This document shows positions 978 to 35,360 of a stretch of DNA of 35,429 nt, one piece after another. How positions within the stretch are numbered: position 1 is the stretch's first letter; each line of letters starts with the position of its first letter. Made by a program: the position numbers and the translations under genes. The notes beneath the pieces are model-generated. The model ran no database searches. It saw only the letters and a list, made by a program, of their open reading frames with translations, and was not told the DNA's origin. Source of the DNA: Hyphomicrobiales bacterium (lineage in GTDB: Bacteria; Pseudomonadota; Alphaproteobacteria; Rhizobiales; HXMU1428-3); NCBI GenBank assembly GCA_017640685.1, contig JAEPQF010000025.1, positions 1 through 35,429 of the forward strand, written 5' to 3'.

Positions 978-1021
978 GTATCAAACAGTGATCAAAATAA
1001 ACTTTTGAAGTTTGATTTGCT

Positions 1022-1061
1022 AAAAAAGCCCGCCTGTATATTGCAGGTGGGCTCTTTTTTT
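1022..1061 (+). terminator. Rho-independent terminator after cox3
   Basis: A stem GCCCGCCTG/CAGGTGGGC (one G-T pair) with loop TATATT is followed by TCTTTTTTT. It lies about 45 bases after the cox3 stop and just before the first intergenic repeat unit. Confidence 0.9.
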
Positions 1062-1224
1062 GTGCTTCAGGTTGCTCACCAGCAACCGCACTATTTTGTG
1101 CTTCAGGTTGAGTTGTTCTTGCTTCAGATGCCCACTAGGCATCCGCAAAAAGCAACCATATATTGTGTTTATAATTTGGGTTGTTATTTTTAATGGACTT
1201 TCAGGTTTCCTACCAGAAACGGTC
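1062..1224 (+). repeat. Intergenic bulged-hairpin repeat cluster 1 (three units, one nested)
   Basis: Unit A (1062-1091): outer stem GTGC/GCAC, bulge TTCA, inner stem GGTTGC/GCAACC, loop TCACCA. Unit B (1119-1148): outer TTGC/GCAA, bulge TTCA against a single C, inner GATGCC/GGCATC, loop CACTA. Unit B is enclosed by a second pair of arms, GGTTG (1106-1110) and CAACC (1153-1157), so it sits in the loop of another hairpin. Unit C (about 1196-1224): GTTTC/GAAAC with loop CTACCA and a weak outer GAC/GTC. The short ORFs called here (1005-1193 and 1060-1251) are repeat sequence rather than genes. Confidence 0.85.
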
Positions 1225-1264
1225 GCTAACGACAGCTTGAAAATCTCATAAGAGAGACGTTTAT

Positions 1265-12624: not shown

Positions 12625-13130
12625 TTTCTCTCACGGCTATTCTAAGCGCTTTTTTTGCACTTCATTACCCATTGTTTAAGTGCTCCTTTAGTTACCTACT
12701 AGGGGCAACTGTCGCATGCAATCGCGCTTAGGCCTCCGAGGGGCGGCGCTAGGCGCCGGACTTCGCTGGCACTTCGTCATGTCTCTCAACCCGAAGTGGG
12801 TTGAGTTCCTTCTTTGTGTAGCTTGTATTAAATTTTTGTCTTATGGGCGGTGGGTACTTTTAGTGCTTTGGATTGCCCACTGTTTAAGTGCTCCTTCAGT
12901 TGCCTCCTCTTTACTTGCTCCTTCAGTTGCCCACTAGGCAACCGTCGCATGCAACCGCATAACTGCTGCCCTGCGATGGCGCGGGGCTAAGCACTAACAG
13001 TCTCTTTTCGTTTTGCTTTTGATTATCCATCAATAACCGTGCTGAGGTCTTGTGTTTTTTATCTTCAGCTAAATGTTAGAGTTTTAACTCATCTCTTTTA
13101 GCGTTTTGAGTTTTGGAAGCTATTGTCATT
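12625..13130 (+). repeat. Intergenic bulged-hairpin repeat cluster 3 in a gene-free gap
   Basis: About 500 bases without a credible gene. First unit (about 12678-12730): TAAGTGC/GCGCTTA outer arms, GTTACC/GGCAAC inner arms with one mismatch. Second unit (12915-12954): inner GTTGCC/GGCAAC, loop CACTA, outer TTGC/GCAA. It is enclosed by GTTGC (12899-12903) and GCAAC (12951-12955), which would compete for the same right arm. Both units share a tail TCGCATGCAAYCGC not seen elsewhere. Between them lies a GC-rich pocket (12722-12805). The 73-residue ORF at 12716-12937 spans these repeats and is rejected. From 12970 to 13130 nothing further is recognised. Confidence 0.75.
12785..12805. repeat. Perfect 8-bp inverted repeat in GC-rich pocket
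   Basis: CTCAACCC and GGGTTGAG flank the loop GAAGT, preceded by CATGT. A degraded relative (CATGTCTCTTAGTCCGAAAC then GGGTTGAG) lies at about 28711-28738 upstream of cpdR, so this is likely a second small repeat type that travels with the bulged hairpins. Confidence 0.6.
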
Positions 13131-14296: not shown

Positions 14297-14321
14297 TTTC
14301 TTTTTATTCTCTTTCTAAGTT

Positions 14322-14434
14322 GCGCTTTAGGTTGCCCACAAGCAACCGCGCTTTTTAGCGCTCCTTCAGTTGCCTTGTCTTTGCTTCAGATGCCCACGGA
14401 GCATCCGCAAAACAACCATCGCTGTTGCCTACAG
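14322..14434 (+). repeat. Intergenic bulged-hairpin repeat cluster 4
   Basis: Unit D (14322-14351): outer GCGC/GCGC, bulge TTTA, inner GGTTGC/GCAACC, loop CCACAA. Unit E (14380-14411): outer TTTGC/GCAAA, bulge TTCA against C, inner GATGC/GCATC, loop CCACGGA. Unit E is nested: GTTG (14369-14372) pairs with CAAC (14413-14416), and AGCG (14357-14360) with CGCT (14420-14423). A tail GCTGTTGCCTACAGGG follows, similar to the tail of the cluster at 28556. Both neighbouring genes run on the minus strand, yet the TTCA/TTTA bulge is again on the plus strand. Confidence 0.88.
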
Positions 14435-23783: not shown

Positions 23784-23858
23784 ACGAAGAAGGAGCTAAA
23801 CCTTTTCTCCCTTCAGTTGCCAACCAGCAACTGGATTAAGGCTGAGTTTCTTCTTCGT
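23784..23858. repeat. Repeat hairpin inside a larger inverted repeat between convergent genes (cluster 5)
   Basis: The inner hairpin CAGTTGC/GCAACTG (23814-23820 and 23827-23833, loop CAACCA) is a perfect 7-bp stem led by CCTTCAG, as in other family members. An unrelated outer pair, ACGAAGAA (23784-23791) and TTCTTCGT (23851-23858), encloses it. The whole could serve as a bidirectional transcription end for chaC and the gene at 23929, although no long T-run follows. Confidence 0.75.
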
Positions 23859-23928
23859 ATCGATGGGGTTTCGTTTTTTAGAAGTAACTTTACTTTTTGA
23901 GCATTTCATTTGCCTAATGGCAATCGTA

Positions 23929-27026: not shown

Positions 27027-27285
27027 TGGTCTAATACCCTCTATTTGATGTGTTTTGGCTTATTTTTGAACTTTTCAGCAGATTTGGGCCGTTGGTTTAG
27101 AAGTTAGTGAAATTATTCTTTATCTTAGCCGCCATTATTGCCAGCAAAAAGTGTTTTGTAAATTTTATTTAGCCGCTGAATGAGGCCAAAGCGGGGATAA
27201 GTCTGGAAAAGAAGGGCTTCTTTAATTATTTCTCGGTTATTTCTAGATATTCTTTATTTTTGAACTGCAATTGGTGCATTTTATT

Positions 27286-28545
27286 ATGATTTTGGTTTGT
27301 CCAGAATGTTCGACCCATTATGAAATTCCTTCAGCTTTGCCTGAGGGGGGGACGAAAGTGCGCTGTACGAGTTGTACTCATGTTTGGATGGCAACCGCAG
27401 ATGATGTGTTTGAAAATGCCGCTTTGGCTGAAGAAAGTGCTCAAGCTAAAGAGGCTGCTCCAGAAGAGACTGCTTCTAGTTTAGTAGAGGAAGAAGAAGC
27501 TGGTATTCCTGCGATTTCTCCTTTTGACGAAGACCCTTTTGAAGAGCTTGATTTTGAAGAAATTGAGGAAGAAGCTCTGAACGAGACTGAAGAATTAGAT
27601 CAAGCAGAGCTCGATAGTTTGTTTGAAGAGATGGGGGTCGACCCGGAACCTGAGCCTGAGCCCGAACCTGAGCAGGCTGAAGAAAACTCTCAAGGTGATA
27701 TTGATAGCCTATTTGATGAGATGGCTGATGAAGAACCTGAGGATGATAATTCTCAAGATGATATTGATAGTCTCTTTGATGAAGTGGGTGATGATGCTGG
27801 AGAGGAAAACTCTCAGGATGATATTGATGGTTTGTTTGACGAACCTGAGGCGGCTGAGGAAAACTCGCAAGATGATATTGATGGCTTGTTTGATGAGCCA
27901 GCTGCAGATGAGGGAGAAGAAAACTCTCAAGATGATATAGACGGACTTTTTGATGAAGAGCCGGCTGTTTCAGAAGAACCTCAAGCTGAAGAACCACTAG
28001 CTGCAGCAGAAGAAGATGCGGAAGATCCATTTGAGAATGAGACAGTTGAAGTAGAGCTTGATGATGAGCCTGCTGTTGAACCCGAGCCAGTTGCAGCAAA
28101 ATTACCGATTTGGAAAAAACTTAGCCGCAATGAAATGATTGGTTGGGGAGGTTATGCCCTTTCTATTGTTTTGGTTTTTTCCATCATAATCATGGCTCGT
28201 GTTTCCATTGTTAAGGCCATTCCTAGCATGGCGGGTGTCTATGCGGCATTGGGTATGAATGTGAATGTTAGAGGTTTGACCTTTACGAATGTGCAGCAAA
28301 AATGGGTGATCGAAGATAATCGGCTTTTGCTTAAAGTTCGAGGTGAAGTTACCAATTTAACAAATCGCTATAAAACTCTACCTCCTATGGTTTTTGGAGC
28401 TGTTGGGCCAAATAAAAAAGAAATTTTCCGTTGGGTTATGAAGGTTAGAAAAAAACCTCTCTTACCTGGTGAGAAAGCCCCTTTCATGGCGATGGTACCT
28501 TTGCCGCCAGAGCAGGCTCGTCATTTATATATTAGTTTTCAGTAG
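27286..28545 (+). CDS. MJ0042 zinc-ribbon / DUF3426 membrane protein with acidic SQDDIDxLF repeats
   Basis: A 419-residue single-pass membrane protein. N-terminal MJ0042-type zinc ribbon: CPEC, then CTSC with HVW following (residues about 4-33). A very acidic region (about 45-265) includes five copies of NSQxDIDxLFDE plus an earlier weaker copy (DQAELDSLFEEMG) and a Pro-Glu run. One membrane helix (GGYALSIVLVFSIIIMARVS) and a C-terminal DUF3426-like domain (EVTNLTNRYKTLPPM, LLPGEKAPFMA) follow. The ORF track starts at TTG 27271; the ATG at 27286 (MILVCPEC) matches the family start. Location opposite ftsE is typical for Hyphomicrobiales; function is not known. The repeat motif resembles the N-terminus of FliM. 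Confidence 0.9.
   Translation: MILVCPECSTHYEIPSALPEGGTKVRCTSCTHVWMATADDVFENAALAEESAQAKEAAPEETASSLVEEEEAGIPAISPFDEDPFEELDFEEIEEEALNETEELDQAELDSLFEEMGVDPEPEPEPEPEQAEENSQGDIDSLFDEMADEEPEDDNSQDDIDSLFDEVGDDAGEENSQDDIDGLFDEPEAAEENSQDDIDGLFDEPAADEGEENSQDDIDGLFDEEPAVSEEPQAEEPLAAAEEDAEDPFENETVEVELDDEPAVEPEPVAAKLPIWKKLSRNEMIGWGGYALSIVLVFSIIIMARVSIVKAIPSMAGVYAALGMNVNVRGLTFTNVQQKWVIEDNRLLLKVRGEVTNLTNRYKTLPPMVFGAVGPNKKEIFRWVMKVRKKPLLPGEKAPFMAMVPLPPEQARHLYISFQ
27679..27960 (+). repeat. In-frame tandem coding repeats (SQDDIDxLFDE)
   Basis: Five near-identical units built around AACTCTCAAGATGATATTGA, spaced about 45-66 bases apart, all in the reading frame of the zinc-ribbon gene. Spacer codons are mostly Glu, Asp, Ala and Pro. 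Unit boundaries at protein level: NSQGDIDSLFDE, NSQDDIDSLFDE, then three copies of NSQDDIDGLFDE. Copy number could vary between strains through slippage. Confidence 0.9.
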
Positions 28546-28555
28546 TTTTCTCTCA

Positions 28556-28645
28556 CTTTTTAGCGCTCCTTCGGTTGCCTCTATTGCGCTCTAGATGCCC
28601 ACAAAGCAACCGCGCTAAGGCAACCTTCGTTGTTACCTACAGAGT
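28556..28645 (+). repeat. Intergenic bulged-hairpin repeat cluster 6 (nested)
   Basis: Inner unit G (28586-28615): outer stem GCGC/GCGC, bulge TCTA, inner GATGC/GCAAC with one mismatch, loop near CCACAA. It is enclosed by a perfect 7-bp pair GGTTGCC (28573-28579) and GGCAACC (28619-28625). A tail TTCGTTGTTACCTACAG matches the tail of cluster 4 closely. It lies just after the stop of the zinc-ribbon gene; the rest of this roughly 300-base gap holds a degraded copy of the 12785 inverted repeat (about 28711-28738) and the cpdR promoter region. Confidence 0.85.
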
Positions 28646-28768
28646 TTTTAGTATTTTCCTAAATAATTTTTCCTTTTTTACTACTGATAGTTTTAATTCT
28701 TGAGTTTTGGCATGTCTCTTAGTCCGAAACGGGTTGAGTTAACTTAAAAGAATAGTTCAATAATGAAA

Positions 28769-33684: not shown

Positions 33685-33690
33685 TCCTTT

Positions 33691-33903
33691 TTAAGTGCTC
33701 CTTCAGTTGCCATTTTTGTGCTTCGGTTGCCCACCAGCAACCGCAACATTGTGCTTCAGCTGTTCACATGGCATCCGCACTAGCAACCGTTTTTTTTAAT
33801 TGGCCTTCAGTTGCCATTTCTTTGCTTCAGATGCCCACAAGGCATCCGCAACGGCAACCGGCCTTTTTTAGTTGGCCTTTAGGTTGCCCACAAGCAACCG
33901 GCC
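33691..33903 (+). repeat. Intergenic bulged-hairpin repeat cluster 7 (largest, four units, two nested groups)
   Basis: Unit H (33718-33746): inner GGTTGC/GCAACC, loop CCACCA. Unit I (33751-33780): outer GTGC/GCAC, bulge TTCA, inner degenerate. H and I are enclosed together by GTTGC (33706-33710) and GCAAC (33783-33787). Unit J (33822-33851): outer TTGC/GCAA, bulge TTCA against C, inner GATGCC/GGCATC, loop CACAA; enclosed by GTTGCC (33810-33815) with GGCAAC (33853-33858) and by GGCC (33802-33805) with GGCC (33860-33863), so the enclosing hairpin itself has the family layout. Unit K (33874-33903): GGCC/GGCC, bulge TTTA, GGTTGC/GCAACC, loop CCACAA. The cluster fills the gap of about 300 bases between argH and lptM. 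Confidence 0.92.
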
Positions 33904-33983: not shown

Positions 33984-35360
33984 TTAAGTTTGTTTTTCTA
34001 GTGATTTTATCCATTTCTTCGCCATTTTTCGAACCTCTGTGGGCGCTGTGCCACCATATGATTTGCGGCTTTTTACTGAATTTTCGACAGAAAGAACGTT
34101 AAAAATGTCTTTTGTGATTTTTGGCTCTACTGATTGCATGTCATCAAGGCTTAATTCATGAAGGCGTAGATTTTGTTTTTCAGCCAAAGCTACAATGCTT
34201 CCCGTGACATGATGGGCGTCTCTAAAGGGAAGGTTTATCACTCGAACAAGCCAATCAGCGATGTCTGTTGCCGTTGAGAAACCACCGCCGGCAGATTTTG
34301 CCATTTTTTCCTTATTTGGGTGCATATCTTCAATCATGCCAGTGAGGGCGGCTAACGCCAGGGAATAATTATCCAAAGCGTCAAAGGCCATTTCTTTGTC
34401 TTCTTGCATGTCTTTAGAATAAGCAAGTGGGAGGCCTTTCATAACCATTGAAAGCCCGTTGAACGCACCGATGATGCGGCCAACTTTTGCTCTAATGAGC
34501 TCAGCTGCATCGGGGTTGCGTTTTTGAGGCATGATGGATGAGCCGGTTGTAAAGCTATCTGAGAGCTTGATAAAGTTAAACTCAGCTGAGGACCAAATGA
34601 CGAGCTCTTCCGCAAAGCGAGAAAGGTGAATGGCACTAATTGACGCTGCGCTTAGTGTTTCCAGGATAAAATCTCTATCAGCAACGCTATCGAGTGAGTT
34701 AGCTGTTGGTTTGTCAAAATCCAAAGCTTTTGCTGTCATTTTACGATCAATTGGAAATGAAGTGCCGGCTAATGCTGCTGAGCCTAGGGGGCATTCATTT
34801 AATCTTTTTCTTGCGTCTTTAAAGCGGGTGACATCACGGCCAAGCATTTCAACATAAGCCAGGCAATGATGACCAAAGGTCACAGGTTGCGCGGTTTGCA
34901 AGTGCGTATAGCCGGGCATGACTACTTCTGCATGCTCTTCTGCTTTTTTGGCGAGTGCCAATTGCAATGTGGTTAATTGACTTAGAAAGTGATCAATTGT
35001 GTCTCTGACATAGAGTTTGAAATCTGTTGCGACTTGGTCATTTCTTGATCTCGCGGTATGAAGACGGCCTGCTGCATCACCAATGAGCTCTCTAAGACGT
35101 GATTCGACATTCATATGAATGTCTTCTAACTGACGAGAGAAGGTGAATTGATCGGTTTCAATTTCTTTTTGAACTTGCTTTAGCCCTGTGATGATTTTCT
35201 TGCCATCTGCTTTGCTGAGGATACCAGCATCAACCAACATTTCGGCATGAGCAATTGAGCCTTTTATATCTTGTTTATAGAGGCGTTTATCGTATCCGAT
35301 GGAGGCGTTAATTTCTTCCATGATTTCGGAGGGGCCTGAGGCAAATCGTCCGCCCCACAA
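33984..35360 (-). CDS. argH: Argininosuccinate lyase
   Basis: Cleaves argininosuccinate into arginine and fumarate, the last step of arginine synthesis. The 458 residues carry [56 protein letters not shown] and the fumarase-superfamily signature [20 protein letters not shown], whose serine is catalytic. The track start is a TTG coding directly for the residue before WGGRF, with no well-placed ribosome site. Upstream, the frame continues through ACG TGT TTT AAA AAT AAA, which reads like the usual NKxWGGRF, and AGAAGG sits about 5 bases before that ACG. The true start may therefore be a few codons upstream with an unusual codon. First gene of the argH-lptM pair. Confidence 0.96.

Follow-up and report, generated by a model that had tools for sequence, protein, structure and literature searches.

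The hairpin cluster beside argH

The DNA analyzed is a stretch of 35,429 nucleotides from a Hyphomicrobiales bacterium (GenBank assembly GCA_017640685.1, contig JAEPQF010000025.1), referred to here as the window, with a GC content of 42% in a genome of 3.5 Mb. A cluster of bulged-hairpin units is located at 33691–33903, with the TTCA strand of the units on the plus strand, and its neighbors are argH (33984–35360) and a small lipoprotein gene/lysA, all on the minus strand. Read along the TTCA strand, a unit consists of a T-rich 5′ lead, stem A, TTCA, stem B, a CCACNA loop, the returning strand of stem B, a single C, and the returning strand of stem A. The unit is roughly 30 nt long (range 30–45 nt) and forms a bulged hairpin with a TTCA/C internal loop. 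The cluster holds one outer unit with two inner units, one outer unit with one inner unit, and one single unit.

The outer unit at 33802–33863 is formed by GGCC-TTCA-GTTGCC and GGCAAC-C-GGCC, which pair over 10 bp around the asymmetric TTCA/C internal loop, and its detector score of 13 is the joint maximum. Its loop contains ATTTCT, then the complete inner unit J at 33822–33851 (TTGC-TTCA-GATGCC-CACAA-GGCATC-C-GCAA), and a C on the 3′ side of the inner unit. Unit J is a member of the TTGC/GCAA family of GATGCC units. The first-pass annotation, which was made from the window sequence alone, had described a hairpin within a hairpin of the same design at this site, and both the arms and the coordinates are exact. 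The other outer unit (33702–33789) features the arms GTTGC at 33706–33710 and GCAAC at 33783–33787 with two units in its loop, the first of the GTTGC type (33718–33747, recognized in the sequence and on folding) and the second (33751–33780) with a decayed stem B, GCTGTT/GGCATC, and an intact stem A, GTGC/GCAC. The three-way junction proposed earlier for 33706–33787 is present and represents a loop into which two units have been inserted; two or three units are likewise found in some other loops. The single unit at 33874–33903 is GGCC-TTTA-GGTTGC-CCACAA-GCAACC-GGCC with an empty loop and DNA fold z-scores of −2.7/−3.0.

When the entire region was folded as RNA, its minus strand yielded this nested and branched structure, at −81.5 kcal/mol with a z-score of −4.2 and none of 200 shuffles as good. 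The plus strand of the region reached −62.9 kcal/mol (z −2.4); the TTCA strand folds less well than its complement. The left lead of the outer unit at 33702–33789, TTTTTAAGTGCTC, is native flank and is found in relatives that do not carry the element. Additionally, a AAGTGCTC-like sequence (33688–33702, with a T-run before it at 33691) resembles the 5′ lead of the element itself and is already present at element-free sites in relatives (G004b_21538 vs. G002b; OWN129_855 vs. G004b), as if it were the target and not part of the insert.

The unit family and its strand polarity

A grammar-based detector found 152 units in 0.91 Mb of the genome of this bacterium, a sample of contigs partly picked for having hits, vs. 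11 in the same sequence reversed. BLAST with the 33691–33903 cluster identified 56 places genome-wide. Stem B measures 5–6 bp and is of the GATGC, GTTGC, or GTTTC type. Stem A is about 4 bp and variable, with GCGC/GCGC, GTGC/GCAC, TTGC/GCAA, GGCC/GGCC, TGCC/GGCA, CCCC/GGGG, and other variants. In units chosen by stem B alone, stem A pairs over a mean of 3.06 bp vs. 1.64 bp when the 3′ flanks are permuted, so its sequence is diverse yet complementary. Covariation was 0.49 vs. 0.10 in shuffled rows, the rows being partly selected for pairing. The dispersed copies are mostly intergenic (29 of 225 units lie inside an ORF of at least 100 aa) and are over-represented between convergent genes. No Rfam 15 family matched in the window above its gathering score.

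A covariance model of the unit matched 16 of 298 genomes of the order, comprising all eight genomes of the genus and eight others, six of which belong to one family. Within the genus (this genome and G001 to G007) the copy numbers, which are lower bounds because no more than 150 candidates were scored in each genome, are 3 in G001, 35–47 in G006 and G005, and at least 140–177 in this genome, G002, G003, G004, and G007 (about 170 in this genome, G002, and G004). In a public species collection, exact matches to the unit come mainly from Hyphomicrobiales MAGs, including Methyloligella sp. DHS20C07, Rhodomicrobium sp. DHS20C08, OFTM213, OFTM288, and Hyphomicrobium bins.

The units are strongly polar. 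Neighboring units lie on the same strand in 88 pairs and on opposite strands in 2, and the covariance-model hits keep a constant strand along contigs, e.g., the 1.16 Mb contig G002:C1. Where the size of the GC skew exceeds 0.08, the G-rich strand carries 101 units and its complement 5 (this genome, G002, and G004 combined). The excess is smaller over all stretches, at 105 vs. 47 in this genome and a non-significant 24 vs. 15 in G007, because the strand cannot be read reliably from the sign of a weak skew; within stretches the units are still unmixed in strand. The TTCA strand is C-rich, and therefore the units are not the source of the skew. Between co-directional genes in strongly skewed stretches, the G-rich strand carries 50 of 50 units; the genes run in the same direction in 14 cases and in the opposite direction in 36, and an orientation set by transcription was rejected on this basis. 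The G-rich strand is usually read as the lagging-strand template sequence, where single-stranded DNA is exposed. The units are thus probably located on the lagging-strand template, with GC skew serving as a proxy for the direction of replication.

Nesting and turnover of the units

The first-pass annotation had listed further nested sites in the window and had proposed either that one element inserts into the loop of another at a favored position or that a two-storey structure of fixed design is copied as a whole. Four of the five sites besides 33802–33863 hold well. At 1061–1160 there are two units, the first empty (GTGCTTCAGGTTGCTCACCAGCAACCGCAC) and the second, of the GTTG type, filled with a GATGCC unit at 1119–1148. 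The loop of a GTTGC-type outer unit at 12890–12960 contains another GTTGC-type unit (stem A GCTCC/GTCGC, about 12915–12950), and at 14311–14425 a single unit is followed by a nested unit, at 14380, whose outer right arm has decayed to CAACC. The site at 28573–28625 (within 28560–28630) stands in part, with a good outer unit, GGTTGCC/GGCAACC, around an inner GATGC/GCAAC unit, GCGCTCTAGATGC..GCAACCGCGC, that is mispaired at one position. All of these are on the plus strand, as is a GTTGCC-type unit at 23806–23842 within the inverted repeat ACGAAGAAGGAGCT...CTTCTTCGT of another repeat family. The pattern noted at four sites, a GATGCC unit inside a GTTGCC unit, is true for the window and is not general, as the genome also features GTTTCC and GTTGCC units in GATGCC outer units and GTTGCC units in GTTGCC outer units.

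Enclosing arms are far commoner than in shuffled sequence. At the chosen score 22 units of the own-genome sample have them, vs. 0.86 with shuffled flanks and 5.0 (maximum 10) when the right flanks are permuted among units. When this genome, G002, G004, and G007 are pooled, 40 units are flanked on both sides by a half-arm, and in 35 of them the arms agree in type, vs. a mean of 22.4 and a maximum of 30 over 2000 permutations. Chance juxtaposition of hairpins was rejected by these shuffled and permuted controls. The 3′ junction is nearly constant (1–6 nt before the outer 3′ arm, mostly 2–4). The 5′ junction is 6–16 nt past the outer 5′ arm and is mostly made up of a T-run, sometimes after a retained CCCAC.

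The outer element occurs empty and the inner element occurs alone, and orthologous regions display both states. The orthologs were compared between species, using two close species of the same genus (94–95% protein identity at lysA). In several intergenic regions the species have the outer hairpin and its two flanks in common and differ only in the loop, which is 5–6 nt long in one and consists of a T-run followed by a complete unit in the other. The pairs include GATGCC|CACAA|AGCATC vs. a loop of |TCCTTTTTGACGGG..GGCCTTA|, GGTTG|CCCACC|AGCAACC vs. |GCTTTTC-unit-TG|, GGTTGC|TCACC|AGCAACC vs. |TCTTTTTAGTG-unit-AA|, and GGTTG|CCTATT|AGCAACC vs. |AGTTGTTC-unit-AA|. The pairs with the TCTTTTTAGTG and AGTTGTTC units are reciprocal at one locus. 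At the locus of window positions 978–1264, the window has an empty first unit and a filled second unit, whereas in G004 it is the first that is filled and the second that is empty. The outer unit at the locus of 14357 is common to the window, G002, and G004, and the inner unit is of the GATGCC type in the window and of the GTTTCC type in the other two. A third level is found at one G002 locus, where a unit lies in the loop of an already nested unit and G004 has two levels; GGATGC|CCACAT|AGCATC vs. |TATTTTTGATGGGCC..GGCCCAA| is a pair at this third level. The loop of an unrelated repeat, CTCAGCC|CGAAGTG|GGCTTAG, is likewise filled with a unit in G002; this host repeat is a composite, TCTCACGGCTATT ... 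CCATGTCC-hairpin-CTCCTTCTTCG. Units also land at unstructured T-rich sites.

The filled and empty pairs show the insertion step itself. Outer and inner types combine both ways, which argues for insertion into loops and not only for a fixed two-storey block. Copying of such a block as the only explanation was rejected, since inner and outer types occur in mixed combinations and orthologs differ in whether the loop is filled. Whole blocks contribute to a minor extent: between G002 and G004, a two-storey unit appeared whole in a G002 loop (G004b_115764), and another occupies, as one piece, a site without the element in G002 (G004b_21538). Because the empty loops match the family consensus, insertion is the simpler direction, and this match would favor gain over loss. 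In many filled sites the loop bases look replaced rather than interrupted. Many nested copies are inherited unchanged, and 17 of 46 units are missing from the ortholog or show gaps there. Among retained units, 13 of 500 stem bases and 17 of 173 loop bases differ.

In the own-genome sample, units with a stem A ending in CGC are the inner unit in 1 of 36 cases and GATGCC units with TGC in 14 of 38, and the CGC and CTCC stem A types act as hosts. This is possibly a compatibility rule between stem A type and nesting, in which stem A is confounded with stem B type. A guiding role of the inner stem A for the outer stem B is noted here as a hypothesis that is confounded with unit type.

Origin of the nested structures and associated repeats

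On the best reading, the family is a previously undescribed mobile palindrome that resembles REPs and inserts itself into the loops of hairpins. The bulged hairpins of roughly 30 nt would spread through the genome as a non-autonomous element, and their preferred landing site would be the loop of an existing hairpin of their own family or another. Each landing would exchange or interrupt the 5–6 nt loop and leave the outer stem intact, and repeated landings would build two- and three-storey structures and multi-branched loops. From the strand polarity and the loop preference we infer that insertion would take place on single-stranded, folded lagging-strand template DNA and that a strand-specific activity encoded in trans would perform it. 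A small non-autonomous mobile palindrome with these properties is given a probability of roughly 0.55. It is a tentative and rather doubtful further proposal that this is a new kind of element, i.e., a gene-less palindrome of about 40 nt that uses a non-Y1 activity, has a structural target (any hairpin loop on the lagging-strand template), and nests recursively. The enzyme search covered the Y1_Tnp family (PF01797), which was not found in 7 of the 8 genus genomes, this one included; no units lie close to the two Y1 genes of G004. The better folding of the strand complementary to TTCA speaks against the mobile-palindrome reading. That no Y1_Tnp transposase is linked to the units argues against it as well, and the frequent apparent replacement of loop bases argues against simple single-stranded DNA transposition, which does not replace them.

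The last two of these points suit the strongest rival, in which no dedicated enzyme acts and the shuffling of units comes from template switching during replication together with gene conversion from copy to copy. Synthesis would stall at hairpins on the lagging-strand template, the nascent strand would jump by way of shared arms or T-runs, and loops would be exchanged or arrays extended. Such a process fits the strand polarity, the replacement of loop bases at most filled sites, the growth of tandem arrays by whole repeats, the swapping of unit type at fixed array positions among G002, G004, and this genome, and the outcome of the Y1_Tnp search. However, landings in the loops of unrelated repeats and at unstructured T-rich sites give copy-to-copy conversion no homology. 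Template switching as the whole explanation is considered possible on the unlikely side, and both processes may operate. A selected RNA or DNA structure (a 3′ UTR stabilizer, a terminator, or a polar signal such as an FtsK-orienting motif) that nesting strengthens would account for stems that are more conserved than loops, for the excess between convergent genes, and for the strong polarity; but the strand tracks the replication proxy rather than transcription (the G-rich strand in 50 of 50 cases), about a third of the units are absent or gapped in a near relative, many arms are decayed, and the window has no Rfam match, which leaves this explanation scarcely probable.

Classical REP elements, mobilized by a RAYT/TnpA-REP (HUH Y1) transposase, are similar to the units in several respects. 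REP/BIME sequences are bulged, imperfect palindromes of 20–40 nt with more than 100 dispersed intergenic copies, strand-specific features, and enrichment close to 3′ ends and between convergent genes (PMC8266576, PMC3733652). The units differ in the tag at the hairpin foot, with GTAG found within 14 nt in 0 of 150 5′ flanks and 3 of 150 3′ flanks and CGTC in 1 and 7 of 150, respectively, and also in the lack of a RAYT in 7 of 8 genomes, in direct rather than alternating arrays (88 vs. 2), in their recursive loop insertion, and in their polarity with GC skew. The missing tag, enzyme, and alternating arrays exclude REP membership, which is largely refuted and thus very improbable. The two Y1 genes of G004 are RAYT-like (L233 and L234, G004:C1 11.5–15.4 kb) and lie beside a different palindrome, AATTACGGTNACTGTCACCGTAATT, that is unrelated to the units.

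Other known systems share single features with the family. Insertion of IS200/IS605 elements into the lagging-strand template with hairpin recognition (PMC6006769) would yield the polarity seen, and the fixed orientation of those elements has its counterpart in the 101 vs. 5 units on the G-rich strand, with GC skew as a proxy for the origin; however, the units measure only 30–45 nt and are gene-less, and no tnpA was found in this genome. Insertion sequences that target REPs also use a palindromic repeat as a fixed landing site (PMC1525189), but in that case the inserting element is an IS that carries its own gene, whereas here the palindrome itself enters palindromes. In Volvox organelle genomes short palindromes are described as inserted into one another to give larger composites (PMC2670323), and yeast mitochondrial GC clusters are described as merging and shuffling, with stems more constrained than loops (PMC4478555). 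The palindromes within palindromes of Volvox (PMC2670323) are a likeness of arrangement; both sets of repeats belong to eukaryotic organelles and are unrelated in sequence to the units, and the available text of the two papers (PMC2670323, PMC4478555) reports no replication-strand polarity. A search of the open-access literature yielded no account of this family or of hairpins nested recursively in the chromosome of a bacterium. The spread of REP-like palindromes is still poorly understood, and the occurrence of empty and filled states side by side, a structural target, and an orientation that follows a replication proxy make single-strand insertion directly testable here. Loop insertion by a mobile palindrome would show that the palindrome-in-palindrome growth of algal organelles also occurs in the chromosome of an alphaproteobacterium, and that branched RNA and DNA structures can originate stepwise.

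Additional repeats are found in the window and in the related genomes. A second, larger repeat is composite and reads TCTCACGGCTATT - hairpin - GGCCTACGAGGTGCGG - hairpin - GGGC... - CCATGTCC - hairpin - CTCCTTCTTCG; its three hairpins differ widely in the sequence of their stems, which still remain complementary. The composite TCTCACGGCTATT/CTCCTTCTTCG repeat, whose loops are occupied by TTCA units, is located at 12625–12850, 23789–23880, and 28700–28745 of the window and at many other loci, e.g., L198 (G004:C4 ~116.7 kb). A third palindromic repeat (..CCTAAAACCGGTNCC..TTTTAGG..) has a TTCA unit inside (G004:C4 ~202.9 kb, L107, L025), and the CCTAAAACCGGTNCC repeat of G004:C4 ~202.9 kb is entirely missing at the orthologous G002 site. 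The window also features a tandem acidic repeat at 27600–27971 with a period of about 60 nt (direct repeats D2/D6/D7), which is located within an ORF at 27271–28545 that encodes a zinc-ribbon protein.
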